A DNA stretch of 64,000 bases from Frankia casuarinae (GCF_000013345.1 NC_007777.1:2976001-3040000), one strand, 5' to 3'; shown: positions 23,912-34,002, counted from the first letter of the stretch. Program-made: numbers and translations. Notes: generated by a model from the letters alone, not told the origin.

Positions 23912-24258
23912 ATGCCCGGGACGGTGTACGGCTACATCAGGACGGAAGACGACGACGAAGCCGAGGTAGACCGCCTGCATGATCGGCTCGGTTCCCACGC
24001 CGCCGCCGGGGCCAGGCCCTCGCCGATGTGTTCGTGGACCGGAACATGCCGCCGGGCCAGCTCATCCGCCCCGGCCTCACGCTGCTACTGGATGCGGTCC
24101 GGCGCGCGGACGGTGCCATCGTCATCGTTCCCGACCTCTATCACCTCTCCTCGCTCATTGCTGCACGGCGCGCAATCGAAGCAGAAATCAGTGAGGCCGG
24201 TGCGCGGCTGATTGCGACCGCGGCCGCCGGCGACGACGTCGGGGCTCAGCCGTCGTGA
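23912..24258 (+). pseudogene. Small resolvase-like protein, frameshifted
   Basis: The start MPGTVYGYIRTEDDDEAEV is followed after about 30 codons by a frame change to QALADVFVDRNMPPGQ and IRPGLTLLLDAVRRADGAI. Together they make a resolvase N-terminal-like domain lacking a DNA-binding part, as found upstream of anti-sigma-like ATPase genes in actinobacteria. One base is lost or gained near 24010. The stop overlaps the next start by 4 bp. Confidence 0.65.
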
Positions 24259-24854
24259 CGGCCCCGGCGACCTCGACGAGCGCACGCCCACGCCTGGCGC
24301 GCTCGTCCACGGTCCGGCAGTTCGAGGCCACGGCCAAGACGGTGAGCGCGGCCCGCCAGCACACCACGGCGACGTTGGCTGCCTGGGGATTGGCCGCAGT
24401 TGCGGATACGGCGGAACTGCTGGCCTCGGAGCTCGTGACCAACGCGTGCCGGGCGTCGGCAGGCCGGAGCGGCGTGATCGCCATGCGCCTGACCCGCACG
24501 GACGCCGATTTGGTCATTGAGGTCTGGGATGCCAACCAGACCGCGCCGGTGCGGCGAAAGCCTGGAGACGACGCCGAAGGTGGGCGCGGGCTTTTGCTGG
24601 TGGACGCCCTGAGCGCCCGGTGGGCGTACTACCGCCCCCGCTCCGGCGGCAAGGTGGTCTGGTGCAGCCTGCCTCTGGCGGCCCCGGCCCACGTCCTCCC
24701 CGAGGACGCCGAACCGCTACCCCACCGTCCGGCCTCATCCGGCCCCGCCCAGCCCGCCGAGGTCTTCACGGACCTGGTGGTGCTCCGGCGGGTGGCTGAC
24801 GGCCTCCGCGCGCTGGACTGGGACCTCCCGCCGGGTGAAGACGCGCGGCCGTGA
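24255..24854 (+). CDS. HATPase_c anti-sigma-factor-like ATP-binding protein
   Basis: A 199-aa GHKL ATPase of the RsbW/SpoIIAB-like type common in actinobacteria. N-box ELVTN (59-63), G1 box DAN (92-94) and G2 box GRGLLLV (110-116) are present. The C-terminal 50 residues are Pro-rich and unassigned. Such proteins bind sigma factors or anti-anti-sigma partners; no partner is adjacent here. The start is GTG at 24255, overlapping the resolvase-like frame. Confidence 0.82.
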   Translation: MTAPATSTSARPRLARSSTVRQFEATAKTVSAARQHTTATLAAWGLAAVADTAELLASELVTNACRASAGRSGVIAMRLTRTDADLVIEVWDANQTAPVRRKPGDDAEGGRGLLLVDALSARWAYYRPRSGGKVVWCSLPLAAPAHVLPEDAEPLPHRPASSGPAQPAEVFTDLVVLRRVADGLRALDWDLPPGEDARP

Positions 24855-24940
24855 CCGCACCCGGCCGCCGCCACCTCTGGTCTGGGTGCGCTCGGGGCCG
24901 GAGGATGGAGGGGACGGCAGCCGATCATCAAAGGAGTGCC

Positions 24941-25762
24941 ATGCCCTCGCGCGACACCGCCGTTTCGCTCCGCACCTTCGACGGCCTGCACCTGGCCGGA
25001 ACCCTCGTGACGCCGGAGGCGACGTACGAACGGGCCGCGGTTCTGGTCCACGGCGGCGGGGTAACCCGGGAAGAGGGCGGCTTCTTCACGCGCTTGGCCG
25101 CCGGGCTGGCGGAGGCGGGAGTGGCCTCGCTGCGCTTTGACCTCCGGGGCCACGGGGAGAGCGAAGGCCGCCAGGAGGAGACGACGCTGACGGCGCACCT
25201 CAACGACATCGCGGTGGCGCTGGCGCGGGTGCGGGAGGACACCGGGGCGCAGGTCATCCACCTGCTTGGCACCAGCTTCGGCGGCGGCTTGACCGCCTAC
25301 TACGCAGCCAAGCGGCCGGAGGAGCTGGCCCGGCTGGTGCTCCTGAACCCTCAGCTGGATTACAAGAACCGGTACGTGGACCAGAAGCCGTACTGGCACG
25401 GCGACTTCTTGGACGACGAAGCCGCCGCCCGACTGACCAAGGACGGCTTCATCCACCACTCCCCGACGGTCCGGCACGGCCGGGCGATGCTCGCGGAGGT
25501 GTTCTGGATCAGGCCGATTCAGGTGGTTGCCGAAATCGCCGCGCCCACCCTGATCGTCCACGGCACCAAGGACACCTTCATTTCGGTGGACGCCTCCCGG
25601 GCGGCGGCACCCCGGTTCCAGGCGGAACACCAGCTCGTGGAGATCGAGGGCGCGCAACACGGCTTCGCCGTCCACGAGGACCCCACCTACGTCGACCCCC
25701 AAAGCCAGGAGTGGCAGGCCTTCGTCATCCGCACGGTGGCGGACTGGCTCACGGCGGGTTAG
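24941..25762 (+). CDS. Alpha/beta hydrolase
   Basis: A 273-aa serine hydrolase. Oxyanion HGGG (37-40), nucleophile elbow GTSFGG (Ser112), acid Asp211 (HGTKDTF) and His240 (AQHGF) are all present. ATG 24941 is preceded at good spacing by AAGGAG (24931-24936). No signal peptide, so cytoplasmic. The stop overlaps the end of the convergent XRE-TPR gene by 4 bp. Substrate unknown; the fold resembles acyl esterase/peptidase-like hydrolases. Confidence 0.88.
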   Translation: MPSRDTAVSLRTFDGLHLAGTLVTPEATYERAAVLVHGGGVTREEGGFFTRLAAGLAEAGVASLRFDLRGHGESEGRQEETTLTAHLNDIAVALARVREDTGAQVIHLLGTSFGGGLTAYYAAKRPEELARLVLLNPQLDYKNRYVDQKPYWHGDFLDDEAAARLTKDGFIHHSPTVRHGRAMLAEVFWIRPIQVVAEIAAPTLIVHGTKDTFISVDASRAAAPRFQAEHQLVEIEGAQHGFAVHEDPTYVDPQSQEWQAFVIRTVADWLTAG

Positions 25763-27102
25763 ACCAGCAGGGCGGCGCGCAGCTGGCGGGGACCGGGCCG
25801 GGTCTGCCAGGGCGTCAATATCTGGGCGGCCCGCGTCAACTCCCGGGTGGTGCGGCTGGAGCCGGTGGCCGTCGCCAGCCGCAGGGCGGTCAGGCCTTCC
25901 TCGGCGGCGGCGTCAGGCTCGCCGCCTAACGCATGAGCGACAGCCCGGCGTGCCCGGTAGTAGCCCTCGTCCCGGCGGGACAGCGCGCCGGTTGCCAGGA
26001 CTTCGCCGTAGAGGGCCGCGGCCCGGCCCGGCTTTCCCGCCTCGATGTAGCAGGTGGCCGACCGCAACAACCAGGTTCCTTCGTCGTACCCGGCCCCCAG
26101 GGAATCCGGGTCGTCGTCGGCCGCCCCCAGCAGCGCGCGAGCTTCGTCAAGCTTCTGCTCCACGACGCCGATGGGGTCGCCGGTCATCGCCAGACCGCGT
26201 GCCTCCTGCTGCGTGACCTCTGCCTGAACCCGGGGCGGCAGGTTCCACGGCCCGTAGCGCGCCGCCTGGGCGAGGGTAAGCACCCGCGTCGCGTCACGGT
26301 CCTCATAGGCGGACTGGGACTTACGAAGCAGGATGTAGCCCTGCATTGGCAGGTCCCCGGCCTCCTGCGCCCACTCCATCGCCCGGTCGTACCAGTAGGC
26401 CGCCGACGTAGCGTCGTGCAAGTCGCGGTAGAGCCAGCCCGCGAACTCTGCCCCGTCTGCCCCGACGCTGAGGAGAGCGCGCCGCACCTGGGGGCGGACA
26501 TCCCGGGCGCGGGACTGGATGGCATCGAGGACGCCCAACACCAGGGGCAGCGCCCGGAGCGGCCCCATCTGGCCGTCGTTGGCCTTGCACCGGGTGAACT
26601 GCTGGCCGAAGTAGCCCACCACCGTCTCATCCAGGTAGCGGCCCGCGTCCTGCATCGCGGCGGCCAAGTGCTGCATTTCCTCTAGGCTCGCCAGTGGGAC
26701 GACGTGGGCCGACCCGGGCGCGGCCCGCTCCCCCCGGGGCATCGGCACCTGGGGCGCGCCCGCCTCGCCAGAGTCCGAAGCCAGCTCCGCGACCAGATCA
26801 GTGAGGCCGTGGGAGTGCGCGGCGGCGCGGTCAATGGGAAGCGCCACCTGTTGCCCGCCGACGATGACCGGCACGGTGAGCGCCGGCGCCTGGCTCCCTC
26901 CGGTGGCCCGGGTGCGCGGCTCCCCGGGACGGTCGAACCAGAGCAGTTCCCCCGGGATGCCGAGGATTTGGCTGTAGCGAATCAGCTTGGTCAGCTCTTC
27001 GGGGGCGCGGCCGTTCTCTATCCGGCTGAGCTGCGCCTGTGTCAGGCCCAGCCACCCGCCCACCAGCTCCTGAGTGGGCGTTCTGCACGCTTTCGTCGGG
27101 CC

Positions 27103-27555
27103 TCAGCTTGAGTTGATCTCTGGGGTGGCCGGTGGGTCGGGCTGGGGCAGGACGAACAGGCCGGGATCGGGCTCGGTGAGAACACCCCGCTCTACCAGCC
27201 GTTTCAGCCGGGCCCGCATGCTCTCGACATGCCGGGGCTCGGTGCCGCCACCCAGCGCCCGGCACACGTCCTTGGCGTGCAGCCCGTTCCCGCCCCGGGT
27301 GAACACGGCCAGCACCTCCCGATACCCCGGCGGCAGCGGCTCGGCCGGTGCGGCGTCGTTCTCGGCGGCCAGGTCCAGCACCGTCTCCCGGGTGATCTCC
27401 AACCGTTCCAGGGCACGTTCAGCGGCGGCGAGCTGCCCGGTGAGCCGGGCGATCTCCTCCCGCAGCTTTTCGACGGCCCGCCCGGCGCGGGCCCGCCGAG
27501 CCTCGATCTGTTCCAGCACCTCCCGCACCGGCACTCCGCTCGTCATTCCCGACAC
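27103..27555 (-). CDS. Accessory protein of the IS1031-like element
   Basis: 150 aa: a coiled coil (ARRARAGRAVEKLREEIARL, residues 19-38, continuing to about 60) and a winged-helix-like C-terminal part (GLHAKDVCRALG, then RARLKRLVERGVL). Its last codons lie inside the left inverted repeat. It follows the transposase gene on the same strand by 9 bp. Many actinobacterial IS5-like elements lack such a gene. It may be a regulator or DNA-end-binding protein. Confidence 0.7.
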   Translation of the reverse strand: MSGMTSGVPVREVLEQIEARRARAGRAVEKLREEIARLTGQLAAAERALERLEITRETVLDLAAENDAAPAEPLPPGYREVLAVFTRGGNGLHAKDVCRALGGGTEPRHVESMRARLKRLVERGVLTEPDPGLFVLPQPDPPATPEINSS

Positions 27556-27564
27556 TCCCGCCGG

Positions 27565-28401
27565 TCAGACCGGCGGGTCACGCCAGGTCGGGGTGGCCGC
27601 CCCGGTCAGCCGGCGGGCCATCACCTCCACCATCGACCAGTGGATCATCGCTACCGCGCTGGCCGGTTTCGCCTCGTAGTCCCGGGCCAGCCGCCGGTGC
27701 AGCATCAACGTGCCCAGGGTCTGCTCAACCCGCCACCGCTTCGGGAGCGGGGTGAACCCCCGCGCTCCCGGCTCGCGTCCGACGACCTCGACATCGATGC
27801 CCAGACCGGCGCCGTGCTCGACGACGGTGGTCTTGAACCCGGCGTCCACCCACGCCTTGCGCACCGGCGGGGCGGCGGCGGCGACCCGGTCCAGCAGGGC
27901 GGTGCCGATGGTGTTGTCGTGCACGCTGGCCGCGACCACGACCACGGCGATGAGCAGTCCCAACGTGTCGACGGCGATCCCGCGTTTACGGCCCGGGCTT
28001 TTCTTTCCCGGGTCCAGGCCGGTCGTGCCCTTCGGGGCGTTGGTGGAGGACCGGACGGTCTGGGAGTCCAGCACGACCGCGCTCGGGTCGGCTTTCCTGC
28101 GGTGGTGCTCACGGACCAGCCAGCGCAGCAGGTCGTGGATCGTCTCGGTGGTGCCGTCGTCGCGCCACTGGCCGAAGTAGTAGTACACCGCGGACGTCGG
28201 GGGCAGGTCGTGGGGCAGGTAGCGCCACTGGCAGCCGGTCCGGGCCTGGTAGAGGACCGCGTTCACGATCTCCCGCATGTCGTAGCCACCCTCGTGCCCG
28301 CTAGCCGAGGGATGCCGGGCCTTCCACGCGGTGAGGACCGGGCGGATCAGGTCCCACGCCTCATCGGACAGGTCACTGGGGTACGGCTTGCGTTCTGCCA
28401 T
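27565..28401 (-). CDS. IS5-family transposase (IS1031-like)
   Basis: A complete 278-aa transposase: N-terminal DUF4096 region (YPSDLSDEAWDLIRPVL, WRYLPHDLPP), then VLDSQTVRSS (Asp), KAWVDAGF (Asp) and RWRVEQTLGTLMLHRRL (Glu). It starts at ATG 28401. It disrupts the XRE-TPR regulator. Confidence 0.92.
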   Translation of the reverse strand: MAERKPYPSDLSDEAWDLIRPVLTAWKARHPSASGHEGGYDMREIVNAVLYQARTGCQWRYLPHDLPPTSAVYYYFGQWRDDGTTETIHDLLRWLVREHHRRKADPSAVVLDSQTVRSSTNAPKGTTGLDPGKKSPGRKRGIAVDTLGLLIAVVVVAASVHDNTIGTALLDRVAAAAPPVRKAWVDAGFKTTVVEHGAGLGIDVEVVGREPGARGFTPLPKRWRVEQTLGTLMLHRRLARDYEAKPASAVAMIHWSMVEVMARRLTGAATPTWRDPPV

Positions 28402-28931
28402 GTCTTCCAGCAGAACGCGCCAGCCGGCGAACGCAAGACGATCAACTCCGCACCCCAGAGATCAACTCAAGCTGAGACCCGGCGAAAGCGTGCAGAACGC
28501 CCACTGAGAGATGGGTTGGGCATGGTGGGGATGGGTCCGGTAGGCAAAGATCACCCGGCCCATGTGCCACGTCGCCAGGGCGTCGCTCATCTGATCCAGC
28601 GCCCAGAACTCCGGGGGCACCTCGGGCGGGCGGACCCGGGCGTCGATGACGGCGCGCTGGCAGGTGCCGCACATGGGCTGCGGGTTGTCGGCGGCCAGGC
28701 GGCGTTTGCACCGGGCGCAGTGCCGTAGGTCAGGCGTGGTCGTCATGCCTGGCCATCCCCCGTTCCGTAACCGTTTGGGCACGATCCGGACCCGACCGTA
28801 ACACCCTCCGGCGCAGTGTCTATGCGTCTCGCGTATGCCCGGCACGAACCACAGGCGTGGTCCTCCACGATCCCCGGCCGGACCCTGAGGACATCTCAAT
28901 CCCCGTCCCCAGGGTGCGAAAGGGGGATGCC

Positions 28932-29615
28932 GTGACCCTCACGGTTGCCGTCCCGGTCTTCGGACCTCCGGCCGCTGGCAAGACCACGCTGACGGCGCGG
29001 CTCAGCAAGGCCCCGGCCACCGCCGTGTTCCGCCTGCGTGAGCACGTCCCCACCACGATCTTGGCGGCCACGGCCACCAGCGCGGAACGCCTGGGCTGGA
29101 TTGACGACTTCACCGTGATTGCCACCCTCCGGGCCTACCTGGAGGACTTGGTCACGGCCGGGGGCACGGGGACAGTCATCTTCGACAACTTCCCCGGCAA
29201 TGCCGCCCAGGTCCGGCACTTCTTGGCGGCGCTCCGGCAGACGGCCCCCGGCTGCGCCGTCGTCGCCGTGGAGCTGACGGTGAACGTCACCACGCTGTAC
29301 CGGCGGGCCTATCACCGCCGGGTCTGCCACCGCTGCGAGCGCGACCCCATCCGTGACCCCCGCCTCCCCGCCGAGGCCCGCGCCGACGACCCCCAGCGCT
29401 GCGCGCGGTGCGGCGGCATCCTCCACCCCCGCCGCGGGGACGCGCCCCGGCTCCTCCGCGCCCGGCTACAGCGGTACCGCCAGACCGCTGACGGGATCAA
29501 GGAGGCGTTCGCGGGTGGCGGCGTCACCGTTCACGCGCTCGACAGCGGCACCACCCCCGAGGACACCGCCCAGGCCGTTACCGCCCTCCTCACCGCCAGG
29601 AGCAGCCCCGCATGA
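28932..29615 (+). CDS. Adenylate kinase-like P-loop kinase with zinc LID
   Basis: 227 aa from GTG 28932, chosen because AAAGGGGG lies about 7 nt upstream and the P-loop strand begins at once. Walker A is GPPAAGKTT. A LID domain with CHRC and CARC pairs is the zinc-binding LID of the adenylate kinase family, followed by LLRARLQRYRQTADGI. It probably phosphorylates a nucleotide or nucleoside-like substrate. Its stop overlaps the radical SAM start by 4 bp. Low similarity in the NMP-binding part leaves the acceptor open. Confidence 0.78.
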   Translation: MTLTVAVPVFGPPAAGKTTLTARLSKAPATAVFRLREHVPTTILAATATSAERLGWIDDFTVIATLRAYLEDLVTAGGTGTVIFDNFPGNAAQVRHFLAALRQTAPGCAVVAVELTVNVTTLYRRAYHRRVCHRCERDPIRDPRLPAEARADDPQRCARCGGILHPRRGDAPRLLRARLQRYRQTADGIKEAFAGGGVTVHALDSGTTPEDTAQAVTALLTARSSPA

Positions 29616-30751
29616 CCACCTTCCTTGATCTTCCCCACCTGCGCCCGAGGGACGACTATGGCCACGCCCGGATGCCGCGCCGGGCTGACGCACCTGCCCC
29701 GGAACACATTGACCGGATCGCCTACGGCCGGTTCCGGAATGTGTACCTCTACATCACCGAGGCCTGTCAACTGCGCTGTGAACACTGCTACATGGGCGAA
29801 CGACTGGAGCGCGCCTTGAAGATGCCGTTGCCCCAGATCACGGAGACGCTGCGGACCTGGCGACGGATGGGCGGCAGCAAGCTGACCATCCTGGGCGGGG
29901 AGCCGACGCTTCACCCCAACTACATCGAGGCCATCCGGCTCGGGCGGCAGCTGGGGTACGAGGACGTCATCACCACCACGAACGCCCAGAAGCCCGCGGC
30001 ACGGAAGTTCCGCCAGCTGGAACCGGCGGACTTCGCCTACGTCCAGGTCAGCCTCGACGGCGGGAGCGCCGCCACCCACGACCAGGTACGCGGCGAGGGC
30101 ACCTTTGACGTGGCTCTGGAGACGACGGCGGAGCTGGCCGGACGCGGCTTCGACACCCGGATCATCTGCACCGTCAACCGGGCCAACCGGGGCGACGCCC
30201 TGAAGCTGTTGGACCTGGCCGACGAGATCGGCGTGTCCCTCGTGAAGTTCCACGTCTTCTCCACCATCGGCACCGGCCACGGCAACGCCGACATGGCGAT
30301 GGGTCCATCAGCCTGGGTGACGTACTGCGACGTCATCAACCAGGTGGCCCCGGCCTACAAAACCCGGGTCTGGTACCAGCCCACCTACGCCCGGCGAAAC
30401 CAGATGAGCCGCTATGCGGCGGAGGGATACCAGGGGTGCATCGGCCGGACGCTGGACCGCATTTCGATCTTTCCCGACGGGCGCTGCTACGTCTGTTCGT
30501 ACCTGTTCGACACGGACCTCAACTTCGCCCGGATGCAGGACGGGCAGGTGGTGTTGAACCGCGAGGCCAACGAGTTCGACCTGTTCACCCAACCGCTGAT
30601 GACGAGCGCGTGCGGCGGGTGCAAGGCCTCCGCCTGCCAGGGCGGTTGCCCCGCCGAGGAAGTCGTCATGGGCGGCTCCTCCTGCGCCGCGGAGCCGGAC
30701 ATCGTGCCGGTGTGCCGGTTGTGGAAGTCGTCCGCCAAGCCCGAGGACTGA
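29612..30751 (+). CDS. Radical SAM/SPASM enzyme
   Basis: A 379-aa Fe-S enzyme. The SAM-cluster motif CQLRCEHC gives Cys52, Cys56 and Cys59; GGEP at 95-98 binds SAM. A C-terminal SPASM-like region has at least seven cysteines (CYVC, CGGC, ACQGGC, VCRLW) for auxiliary clusters. SPASM enzymes usually modify peptides or sugars. No precursor peptide with a clear leader is seen nearby. Translationally coupled to the Adk-like gene and 13 bp before the cupin gene. Confidence 0.88.
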   Translation: MTTFLDLPHLRPRDDYGHARMPRRADAPAPEHIDRIAYGRFRNVYLYITEACQLRCEHCYMGERLERALKMPLPQITETLRTWRRMGGSKLTILGGEPTLHPNYIEAIRLGRQLGYEDVITTTNAQKPAARKFRQLEPADFAYVQVSLDGGSAATHDQVRGEGTFDVALETTAELAGRGFDTRIICTVNRANRGDALKLLDLADEIGVSLVKFHVFSTIGTGHGNADMAMGPSAWVTYCDVINQVAPAYKTRVWYQPTYARRNQMSRYAAEGYQGCIGRTLDRISIFPDGRCYVCSYLFDTDLNFARMQDGQVVLNREANEFDLFTQPLMTSACGGCKASACQGGCPAEEVVMGGSSCAAEPDIVPVCRLWKSSAKPED

Positions 30752-30764
30752 GGGAGACACCCTG

Positions 30765-31406
30765 ATGAATGAGATCATCAAGCCCCTCCGGGGACTGGAC
30801 TGGGACGACCTCGACGCCGTGGAGAGCGGCACCCGCAAGGCGCTGGCGCAGGTGGCGGAGGACCCGGAGGCGGTGAGGGAAGCCCTGCTCCGCCTGCCGA
30901 CGCGGCCGGAACTGCTGGCCCTGTGCGAGCACTACGACATCCTGGACAAAATCGTGCTGTACCAGGATGACGCTGGTGTCCGGGTCCGGCTGCACGTCTT
31001 CCTCCCCGGCTACTTCGACCGGCCTCACAACCACCGCTGGAGTTACGCCAGCCTGGTGCTGCGCGGGGAGTACCGCCACCACCTCTTCGGCAATGTGGAC
31101 GTGGACGACTCCCCGGCCCCGGACGCGCTGAAGGCGCTGGTGGTGCGGCCGGAACCGGTGGGCAGCAGCTACGCCCTGCATCACTCGATGGTGCGCGCCG
31201 TGGTGGCGGAGCCGTTCACGGTGTCGCTGGTGATCCGCGGCCCGGCCGTCAAAGATCGCTTCCTGGTCATGGACCGGAAGACTGGGGAGCGCTGGTGGCA
31301 GTTCGGCGCCGCCCAGGAAACGGCCGCCGAGGCCGCCCGCAAACGCCTGACGCGGGACCGCCTGGACGAGCTGACCACTTCACTCCGGGAGTGGGACCTG
31401 TTTTAG
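30765..31406 (+). CDS. Cupin-like protein
   Basis: 213 aa with a cupin metal motif PHNHRW followed by a conserved Glu (RGEYRHH) and a second His-containing strand (ALHHSMVRAV). It could be a metal-dependent dioxygenase or a binding protein for a polar metabolite. ATG 30765 is preceded by GAGGGAG. It is the third gene of the probable Adk-radical SAM-cupin operon, which ends at the bidirectional terminator at 31541. Confidence 0.75.
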   Translation: MNEIIKPLRGLDWDDLDAVESGTRKALAQVAEDPEAVREALLRLPTRPELLALCEHYDILDKIVLYQDDAGVRVRLHVFLPGYFDRPHNHRWSYASLVLRGEYRHHLFGNVDVDDSPAPDALKALVVRPEPVGSSYALHHSMVRAVVAEPFTVSLVIRGPAVKDRFLVMDRKTGERWWQFGAAQETAAEAARKRLTRDRLDELTTSLREWDLF

Positions 31407-31540
31407 ACCGCCCCGCCGCCCCATGCCTGGCCGCTGCCGGTGCCGAGGCGCGGCCGACGCCCCCGCATCCAAAGGAGGTGCCGCCCATCAGCGACTAATC
31501 ACCCGCCGCCGTAGACCGACCAACCGCGTTCACCCCGAAG

Positions 31541-31572
31541 AGCCCGCCCCTCCAACGGCGTAGGGGCGGGCT
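31541..31572. terminator. Bidirectional terminator hairpin
   Basis: An 11-bp perfect stem (AGCCCGCCCCT with its complement) and 10-nt loop, between the cupin gene (plus) and the PfkB gene (minus). Just upstream, AAAGGAGG at 31466 precedes only a six-codon frame (VPPISD). Confidence 0.75.
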
Positions 31573-32459
31573 TCTCGTTCGGTCAGCCAGCGGCCGGGGC
31601 AGCCAGACGAGCGCGGGAACTGATGAAGGCGCGCAGCTGGTCCAGGTCCGGAAGGGGTTCGTGGTGGGGACGCTCGCAGCGAAGGCTTCCGCTGGCCGCT
31701 GCCAGCTCCAGGGTTTCCCCCATCGGCCAGCCGAGACGCAGACCGTAGAGAAGGCCGCCGGAAAAGGCCGCGCCGGCGCAGTGGGTGTGCCGTACCACGA
31801 TCTCGAAGGCGGGAACGGATACCCGGCTGGTGTCGCTGAGGGCGACCGCGCCGAAGGCTCCGGCCGTGACCACCACCCAGGAGGCCCGGGTCTGGCTCCG
31901 CAGGGAGGCCGCCGTCGCCAGGGCCTCCCCGTGCGCGGCGTCGTCCACGTTCGTCTGGATCACCAGCAGTTCCGGCCAATCCCGGAGCGCGGAAGCCACC
32001 TCCGGGCTGAGGCTGGAGCCGCCGAGGTTGAGCAGCAGCGGAACCCCTGCCCGGCGGGCGGCCTCGATGGCGCGGAGGCTTGCTGGTTCGATGAGCTGGT
32101 AGCAGTCCACATAGGCGAAGGATGCCGAGGCCAGCGGTGTGAGGTCCACGGCCATCAGCCCATCCAGTACCCCGGGCAGGTACGGAAACCAGGTTCGGGT
32201 GCCGTCATCGTCGGCCACGATCACAATGTGCGACGTTGACTGATCCGGCACCGGCCGGGCCGTGGAGGCCACCCGGTGCCGCTCTAACCAGGCCTGGATT
32301 TGGACCCCGCCCGGATCATCGCCGAAGTCGTTTGAGAGCACGAGCGCCGGGACCTCGAGGGCGGCCAGGACGGCGGCGGCCATAGGGCCATCCGCCGCGA
32401 TGGACGGCTCCACCGTCCGGACCGCCGCGCCCTGGTTCGCCGAGGGGAAATGACCCACT

Positions 32460-33500
32460 GAGCCTTTCCCTGCAACGTTTGGTGACGCTCCGTGAGCGTC
32501 GCTGGGTGTGAGCGTCCCTGGGGGTGGAGACGATGAAGGCGCGGGGCTCCGGTAGGAAGTTGTTCCGACCAAAGAGCAACTCCGAAGGAACCCCACGCCT
32601 CGATGAGTTTCACATACACCGCCGAGCTGCCGTTCGGCGATCACACCGTTTTCCGTCTGGCGGGTCTTCTCGTGGCGGAGCGTCAACGTCGTGGTACCCG
32701 CAAGGGCACCCGGACGCTGTCCGCGTTGGAACAGGCCGTGATGGTCCTGCGCTGGTTCTGTGACGGCACCAGGGCCAGGCGGCTCTTCTCCGATCATGGG
32801 GTGTCCCGGTCGGTGGGCTACCGCTACCTGCACGAGGGAGTCGCCGTGCTCGCCTGGCAGGCCCCGGACCTGCGTGAAGCGCTGATGCGGGCCAGGGTCG
32901 CCGGCTACGAGCATCTCATCGTTGACGGCACGGTCATCGAGACCGACCGGCTACGCATGCCCGGCCCGACCGAAGGCGTGGACCTGTGGTGGTCCGGCAC
33001 GATCTCCAACCACGGTGGCAACATCCAGGTGCTCTCCGCCCCGGACGACGGCTGGCCACTGTGGGTCTCCGACGTGCGGCCCGGCCGCGAGCACGACTCG
33101 ACCGCCCTGAAAGCCTCCGGGGCGCTGCCGGTTCTCGCCGAGTGGACCGCCGACCTGCACGAGGTGCTGTTCGACCTCGGCTACGAAGGGCTGGGCAACC
33201 CGGCCGGGCCGCTCGCGACCGCGTACAAGAAGCCCAAGGGCGGCACCCTCACCGACGAACAGAAAGCGCACAACCGGATCCACAACGCGCTACGCGCCGT
33301 CGGTGAACGCGCGAACGCCCTGCTCAAAGGCACCTTCCGACTCCTCCACAACATCACGATCGACCCCTGGAAGATCGGACTTGTCGTGAAAGCCGCCCTC
33401 GTCATCCTCCACACCGAGCACCGCAGAACCGCCTGACACCCAACACACCAACACACCATTGCGATCACGTCACGTGACGAATCGTTACCGGGAAAGGCTC
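32460..33500 (+). mobile_element. IS5-family (ISL2 group) insertion sequence, copy 2 (1041 bp)
   Basis: Inverted copy of the element at 16235-17275, flanked by ACT (32457-32459 and 33501-33503). Same ends and length; same transposase. Confidence 0.9.
32603..33436 (+). CDS. IS5-family (ISL2 group) transposase, copy 2
   Basis: 277 aa, identical to the product at 16299-17132. It lies antisense to the PfkB gene that it interrupts. Confidence 0.93.
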   Translation: MSFTYTAELPFGDHTVFRLAGLLVAERQRRGTRKGTRTLSALEQAVMVLRWFCDGTRARRLFSDHGVSRSVGYRYLHEGVAVLAWQAPDLREALMRARVAGYEHLIVDGTVIETDRLRMPGPTEGVDLWWSGTISNHGGNIQVLSAPDDGWPLWVSDVRPGREHDSTALKASGALPVLAEWTADLHEVLFDLGYEGLGNPAGPLATAYKKPKGGTLTDEQKAHNRIHNALRAVGERANALLKGTFRLLHNITIDPWKIGLVVKAALVILHTEHRRTA

Positions 33501-33570
33501 ACTGTCCAGAGAGAGGCGGCGGCCAGGTAGCTGACGCAGACCACCGGCCCCGGGTGTGGCCCGGCCACGG

Positions 33571-34002
33571 CTACCAGCCGAAGACGGAGAAGGACCGGCC
33601 CGCGGCGATGTCTTCCAGCGCCGCCCGGCAGTAGGCGATCATGTGGTCCGGCAGGGCATCCAGTGGGAACCAGGCCAGTTCGCTGCACTTCTCCGGCTCC
33701 CGGTTCACCGGTTCGCCGTCCCACTCCCGGACGATGAAGAAGAAGGCGGCCCGGCCGCCGCCGGAAGAGTTGTGCATGATGTGCGCGAACTCCACCGCCT
33801 CCGGCTGGATCGTCACCCCGATTTCCTCTTTGGCCTCCCGAATGAGGGCCGTGACCACGGACTCTCCCGCCTCCAGGTGGCCGGAGGGCAGGTGGTACGC
33901 ACCGTCCTCGTAGCCGGTGTTCTGGCGACGGCCGAACAGGGCTTCGTTGTTTCGGAGCAAGATTAGATGAACATCAGTAGTAACCTGATGGCGAGCAGGC
34001 AT
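33571..34002 (-). CDS. NUDIX hydrolase
   Basis: 143 aa with a full NUDIX box, GHLEAGESVVTALIREAKEE then IGV, at residues about 41-63. It hydrolyses a nucleoside-diphosphate-linked substrate, not identifiable here. Start ATG 34002 has GGAGATC about 8 nt upstream. It is followed after 2 bp by the PfkB kinase gene. Neighbouring Adk-like and PfkB kinases make a nucleotide or nucleoside pathway plausible. Confidence 0.9.
   Translation of the reverse strand: MPARHQVTTDVHLILLRNNEALFGRRQNTGYEDGAYHLPSGHLEAGESVVTALIREAKEEIGVTIQPEAVEFAHIMHNSSGGGRAAFFFIVREWDGEPVNREPEKCSELAWFPLDALPDHMIAYCRAALEDIAAGRSFSVFGW

Follow-up and report, generated by a model that had tools for sequence, protein, structure and literature searches.

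What do an adenylate kinase-like (Adk-like) protein with a zinc LID, a radical SAM/SPASM enzyme, a cupin, a PfkB-like protein and a NUDIX hydrolase accomplish together? The question is posed by a locus of Frankia casuarinae within a stretch of 64,000 nucleotides (the window), which corresponds to positions 2,976,001-3,040,000 in a genome made up of one contig of 5,433,628 bases. The five genes form two convergent operons, with the kinase, the SPASM enzyme and the cupin on the plus strand and the PfkB-like and NUDIX genes on the minus strand. A regulator gene lies upstream of the kinase on the minus strand. A first-pass annotation, made from the sequence alone, had placed the five families at 28932-34002 in this convergent arrangement, together with an upstream Zn-ribbon regulator of the XRE type with tetratricopeptide repeats (XRE-TPR); the gene coordinates, Pfam and NCBIfam bear this out. 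The two libraries back every gene assignment but that of the cupin, which has no family match in either. The most economical reading of the locus is that of an uncharacterised inducible small-molecule cassette. We tentatively propose, at somewhat less than an even chance, that the window carries one of two Frankia copies of a rare regulon that spreads horizontally and produces or alters a small molecule, probably a phosphorylated one.

A rare and mobile gene set

A contig scan of genomes yielded 36 loci, nearly all of them in Nocardia. The gene set, consisting of the Adk-like kinase, the radical SAM/SPASM enzyme, the cupin, the PfkB-like protein, the NUDIX protein and a Zn-ribbon regulator of the NsdA family, is found in about 30 Nocardia loci and a second Frankia locus. 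Apart from truncated loci, the same set recurs throughout the 37 loci analysed, at protein identities of 28-95%. By this neighbourhood search, which the first-pass annotation had suggested, the families co-occur far beyond chance. The Nocardia-type order is regulator (minus), kinase-SPASM-cupin (plus) and PfkB-like-NUDIX (minus). A single-direction kinase-SPASM-NUDIX-PfkB-cupin operon is present in Allorhizocola, Streptomyces phaeochromogenes and two Actinoplanes-type genomes (L029-L031, L034). The slot beside the regulator is variable, being occupied by an alpha/beta hydrolase in 13 loci and in the window, by an APH-family phosphotransferase in 16, and never by both.

The SPASM family was detected in 2 of 396 Actinomycetota genomes (E < 1e-60) and in 41 of 148 Nocardia genomes, one of which (G500) has only a more distant tandem type. 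Within the phylum sample, the cupin was detected solely at the same three places, in genomes also carrying the SPASM family. Twelve other genomes of the host's own genus gave no close match. In Nocardia panacis, the whole cassette sits inside a prophage, between ParB-like/methyltransferase and terminase/portal genes (L066 1-13134, the same as L037), and a Nocardia prophage with the cassette is represented by one contig in IMG/VR; the phage collection searched for the cassette gave no match. Given this patchy distribution and the prophage copy, the data point to horizontal movement of the cassette among soil actinobacteria.

Neither the family libraries nor full-text literature searches for the family combinations matched a known pathway, in agreement with the first reading of the locus. 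An ascamycin paper that cites Frankia CcI3 genes and a 2020 paper on conflict systems were considered and set aside, as both are about other genes. Actinobacterial plasmids (L068 6263-12147, L069, L070) encode tandem SPASM enzymes that are 36-38% identical to the window enzyme. Their genes adjoin those of a nucleotidyltransferase and a glutamate-tRNA ligase (GltX) paralogue, often together with an FAD monooxygenase, and this set is likewise uncharacterised. Relatives of the enzyme, in this more distant subfamily, thus take part in other pathways as well.

An intact and an interrupted copy in one genome

The second Frankia copy lies at approximately 1.0367-1.0422 Mb of the same genome (L060) and is intact, with the same genes in the same order. 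Its proteins share 87% (SPASM), 81% (NUDIX), 77% (cupin) and 70% (kinase) identity with those of the window. The two SPASM proteins are sisters in the tree (support 100/99) and are therefore likely paralogues. Ratios of nonsynonymous to synonymous substitution rates (dN/dS) of 0.12-0.30 between window and intact copy indicate that the genes were under selection. Among the near relatives retrieved is Candidatus Frankia meridionalis, whose regulator is intact and whose SPASM gene is cut short after some 96 matching residues (L063 9151-12232).

The window copy had been listed as if functional, but is interrupted. Its regulator is split by a 1.43-kb IS5-family insertion sequence (IS) element with 58-nucleotide terminal inverted repeats (95%) and a CTGAG duplication, so that the regulator held to control the operons is present in the window only in two pieces. 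A 1.04-kb IS5-family element with an ACT duplication likewise splits the PfkB-like gene. By sequence search, the Frankia genome contains seven full-length copies of the first element (99-100% identity) and three identical full-length copies of the second. Since the coding frames flanking each element agree with intact homologues, both insertions look recent. The cupin is affected at a single residue, with Arg at position 144, where His is found in 33 of 33 other readable copies. With the regulator, the PfkB-like gene and the cupin all damaged, the pathway in the window is probably non-functional.

Between its terminal repeats, the regulator element also carries a second open reading frame (ORF; 27103-27555) comprising a coiled coil and a winged-helix-like part, with weak SlyX and AbiEi_4 matches.

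The enzymes and the PfkB-like protein

Structure searches covered the kinase and the cupin, and the assessment of the PfkB-like and SPASM proteins is based on their sequences. The SPASM enzyme possesses invariant cysteines at C52, C56, C59, C276, C295, C334, C337, C342, C346, C358 and C368, in line with the auxiliary-cluster cysteines with which it had been annotated. It has the CxxxCxxC core and C-terminal SPASM cysteines in common with MftC, ScmF, PqqE, SkfB and BlsE (NCBIfam matches 1e-15 to 6.6e-26), and falls below every NCBIfam equivalog cut-off, the best being ScmF with 91.5 versus 400 bits. Its closest solved relatives in the PDB are SkfB, a sactipeptide enzyme and the best by sequence, and BlsE. 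The partner genes of the mycofactocin, PQQ and SynChlorMet pathways are not seen beside the window gene.

The model of the Adk-like protein (pLDDT 90) matches adenylate kinases (Foldseek E 8e-12). With zinc-LID adenylate kinases the family shares the fold, the P-loop (GPPxxGK[TS]T), the zinc LID with its four invariant cysteines (CxxC...CxxC), the LID arginines and the acceptor-site Gln, which upholds its description as a zinc-LID kinase. In contrast, STGDxxR and DGFPR of these enzymes are replaced by FRLREHx and [DE][NS][FY]PG (DNFPG), and the canonical AMP-phosphate arginines are consequently gone. The host's own Adk-type proteins keep DGFPR. The structure prediction proposed for the acceptor site returned an Adk fold, whose canonical AMP-phosphate motifs are replaced by sequence.

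The AlphaFold2 model of the cupin (pLDDT 92) has mercaptosuccinate and ergothioneine dioxygenases as its top Foldseek/VIA matches, with Z 13.6 over 165 residues (root-mean-square deviation 3.3) for mercaptosuccinate dioxygenase 8vni and Z 13.1 for ergothioneine dioxygenase. The same mercaptosuccinate dioxygenase is the sole PDB sequence match and a weak one (E 0.32), in which the family residue H144 aligns with a His. H88 and H90 are invariant and H144 is likely the third metal His, the putative ligand roles being assigned from position and the weak 8vni alignment. The cupin has in common with the thiol dioxygenases (cysteine, mercaptosuccinate, ergothioneine) the fold, at Z about 12-13.6; its HxH and later His would be placed like metal ligands. 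It differs from them in its low identity (12-19%), in having no Pfam family and, in the window copy, in the missing third His.

The PfkB profile PF00294 scores above cut-off for both the window fragment (2.6e-15) and the intact copy (5e-20), and the best solved relative is the ribokinase 6znx. The catalytic Asp of the ribokinase motif GAGD is replaced by Ala ([GC]AGA) in 19 of 19 aligned homologues. HTHxAGAA takes the place of the expected DTxxAGDA, and the motif aligns to DTTAAGD of 6znx. The label of sugar/nucleoside kinase is not supported for a homologue that has lost this residue. The NUDIX protein conforms to the box GX5EX7REUXEEXGU, with G41, E47, R55, E56, E59 and E60 invariant and G62 nearly so. 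Two kinases and a NUDIX hydrolase had been taken to point to a nucleotide or nucleoside-like metabolite. As stated, the two-kinase premise fails. The case for an ordinary nucleotide or nucleoside substrate is weakened because the PfkB catalytic base is lost, the PfkB-like gene is broken in the window and absent from 10 related loci, and the AMP-phosphate site of the Adk-like protein is replaced.

The regulator and a predicted operator

The regulator fragment in the window exceeds the cut-off of NF053720 (145.6 versus 75 bits), a match common to NsdA-family TPR regulators, from which the window protein differs by an N-terminal Cys4 zinc ribbon. A 17-bp palindrome, TATRYG-N5-CRYATA, lies in the regulator-kinase intergenic region, about 105 bp before the kinase across the family. 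It occurs 25 times in front of the kinase gene and 23 times in front of the NUDIX gene, where mononucleotide shuffles lead one to expect about 5 by chance over all 696 kb of the locus set; the NUDIX-side sites were left out of the motif derivation. As the palindrome precedes both convergent operons in most Nocardia-type loci, the two operons are, on the evidence of this motif, one regulon. In the window, the single match (28821-28837, one mismatch; 0.13 expected) is on the kinase side and the NUDIX side has none. The intact Frankia copy has a palindrome with two mismatches. We infer that the Zn-ribbon NsdA-family regulator binds the palindrome, which we put forward as a new predicted operator; the literature searched held no paper on a palindromic operator of NsdA-family regulators.

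The Nocardia gamkensis locus holds a further NsdA-like Zn-ribbon regulator, which has a palindrome of its own but is not accompanied by the enzymes (L011 17081-17567). The locus also contains, as do similar places in other Nocardia, two small conserved ORFs of about 62 and 69 amino acids without Pfam match, divergent from the NUDIX gene (L011 12902-13299), and a palindrome lies between these ORFs and the NUDIX gene.

Gene inventory of the window

The features of the locus are collected in Table 1. The kinase and SPASM genes overlap by 4 bp at the kinase stop. Upstream of the hydrolase lies an anti-sigma-like HATPase_c_2 gene (24255-24854), which has homologues next to the intact copy (L060 4684-5283) and in L036. 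Gene calls in unannotated loci were made with a simple script. Comparing all ORFs with one another also gave antisense families, which were discarded because they merely mirror the coding strands.

Table 1 Features of the Frankia casuarinae locus, in window coordinates.
Feature	Position	Strand	Remarks
Alpha/beta hydrolase	24851..25762	+	Pfam Abhydrolase; convergent with and overlapping the regulator; variable hydrolase/APH slot
NsdA-family XRE-TPR regulator, C-terminal part, downstream of IS	25759..27074	-	NCBIfam NF053720; intact homologues in L060 and L063
IS5-family element in regulator	27075..28503		Transposase 27565-28401 (-); second ORF 27103-27555 (-); CTGAG on both sides
Regulator, N-terminal part: Cys4 zinc ribbon and start of helix-turn-helix, cut by IS	28504..28746	-	Full-length frame of L060/L063 crosses the insertion point
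Palindromic operator candidate TATGCGTCTCGCGTATG	28821..28837		One mismatch to TATRYG-N5-CRYATA; 111 bp ahead of the kinase gene
Adk-like P-loop kinase, zinc LID CxxC...CxxC	28932..29615	+	Acceptor motifs FRLRE/DNFPG for STGDxxR/DGFPR
Radical SAM/SPASM enzyme	29612..30751	+	Pfam Radical_SAM 5.9e-21; CxxxCxxC at C52/C56/C59; C-terminal SPASM cysteines
Cupin, thiol-dioxygenase fold	30765..31406	+	Family motif H88xH90...H144, here R144
PfkB-like gene, C-terminal part	31583..32459	-	Pfam PfkB 2.6e-15; Ala for catalytic Asp of GAGD
IS5-family element in PfkB-like gene	32460..33500		Terminal inverted repeats; transposase 32603-33436 (+); ACT on both sides
PfkB-like gene, N-terminal part	33504..33568	-	Directly after the NUDIX stop codon; matches VVCFSYLAAASLWNV of intact copy L060
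NUDIX hydrolase	33571..34002	-	Pfam NUDIX 6e-18; intact Nudix box GHLEAGESVVTALIREAKEEIGV

Proposed function and alternatives

In the proposed pathway, the SPASM enzyme would catalyse the central radical transformation and the thiol-dioxygenase-like cupin an oxygen-dependent oxidation. The Adk-like protein may carry out an ATP-driven phosphorylation of a non-standard acceptor, and the NUDIX protein may cleave a diphosphate that arises as an intermediate or by-product. A ligand would be bound, and not phosphorylated, by the PfkB-like protein, and the hydrolase or APH kinase of the variable slot may trim or inactivate the product. Expression would be governed by the Zn-ribbon regulator, bound to the predicted operator before both operons. 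In a bolder version, the product is a phosphorylated metabolite or signal of a new class. It would arise through the SPASM radical step, oxidation by a three-His cupin and phosphorylation by an Adk-derived kinase whose acceptor specificity is new, and the PfkB-like protein, itself without catalytic activity, would sense it; we regard this version as unlikely. Several points weigh against a biosynthetic or modifying cassette. Each enzymatic step is read from fold or family, and the variety of enzymes would fit detoxification or metabolite repair as well. The PfkB-like gene is missing from 10 related loci and is therefore not essential, and the outgroup loci are without the palindrome. The alternatives that we considered are nevertheless less well supported than the small-molecule cassette.

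Foremost among them is metabolite repair or detoxification, in which the cassette, induced through the regulator, serves to recognise and dispose of a nucleotide- or thiol-like compound that is damaged or foreign. NUDIX proteins, thiol-dioxygenase-like cupins, alpha/beta hydrolases and APH kinases are typical house-cleaning or detoxifying families, and the regulator and operator imply inducible control. A SPASM radical enzyme would be unusual in such a role, however, and general house-cleaning genes do not share the rarity and patchy occurrence of the cassette. We regard this explanation as rather unlikely.

Anti-phage defence appears less probable still. Here, a viperin-like radical SAM enzyme would make a nucleotide chain terminator whose phosphorylation is tuned by the Adk-like kinase and the NUDIX protein. 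The radical SAM core matches pVip in PADLOC (4.7e-18) and viperin in NCBIfam, prokaryotic viperin systems also combine such a core with a nucleotide-kinase-like gene, and the patchy, mobile distribution with a copy inside the Nocardia panacis prophage would suit a defence system. The NCBIfam viperin score, however, is only 45.8 bits against a cut-off of 180, the enzyme has a SPASM domain with cysteines of its own, and the Adk-like protein is without the usual nucleoside monophosphate (NMP)-phosphate site. PADLOC, run on the cluster proteins and 97 neighbour genes, revealed no consistent defence association; strong matches among the neighbours were single cases (HamA/HamB, one cyclase).

Peptide maturation is the commonest role of SPASM enzymes, and the first-pass annotation had accordingly raised peptide modification as a possible role. 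The enzyme would then mature a ribosomal peptide encoded elsewhere, as in the pathways of ribosomally synthesized and post-translationally modified peptides (RiPPs), in keeping with SkfB as the best solved relative by sequence. The idea gained no support, as the intergenic stretches searched contain no conserved precursor-like small ORF; a precursor may lie at a distance. The only well-conserved small ORFs diverge from the NUDIX gene in about eight Nocardia and do not resemble precursors, and neither a peptidase nor a transporter gene recurs among the neighbours. We consider a RiPP pathway improbable.

Amino-sugar or aminocyclitol chemistry has an analogue in Candidatus Frankia meridionalis, where a SPASM relative (L062 4296-13065) has as neighbours a NUDIX gene and genes for a UDP-sugar dehydrogenase, an epimerase, an alcohol dehydrogenase and a DegT aminotransferase. 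The PfkB-like and NUDIX families frequently act on sugars or nucleotide sugars, and the sugar-acting radical SAM enzyme BlsE is among the best solved relatives. The L062 SPASM protein, however, is only about 50% identical, its adjoining Adk-like gene is truncated and none of these sugar genes belongs to the conserved cassette. We hold this to be a long shot as well.

Implications

The cassette is thereby delimited as a regulon that is conserved, rare and mobile and has a predicted operator. Its SPASM enzyme stands outside all named equivalogs, the acceptor site of its Adk-like kinase is rebuilt, and its PfkB homologue lacks the catalytic Asp. The window itself provides an example of a cluster that is read as functional from raw sequence and is in fact interrupted, apparently by recent insertions. 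Since the genome also holds the cassette in intact form, under predicted control through the operator, its product may be searched for directly in a laboratory host.

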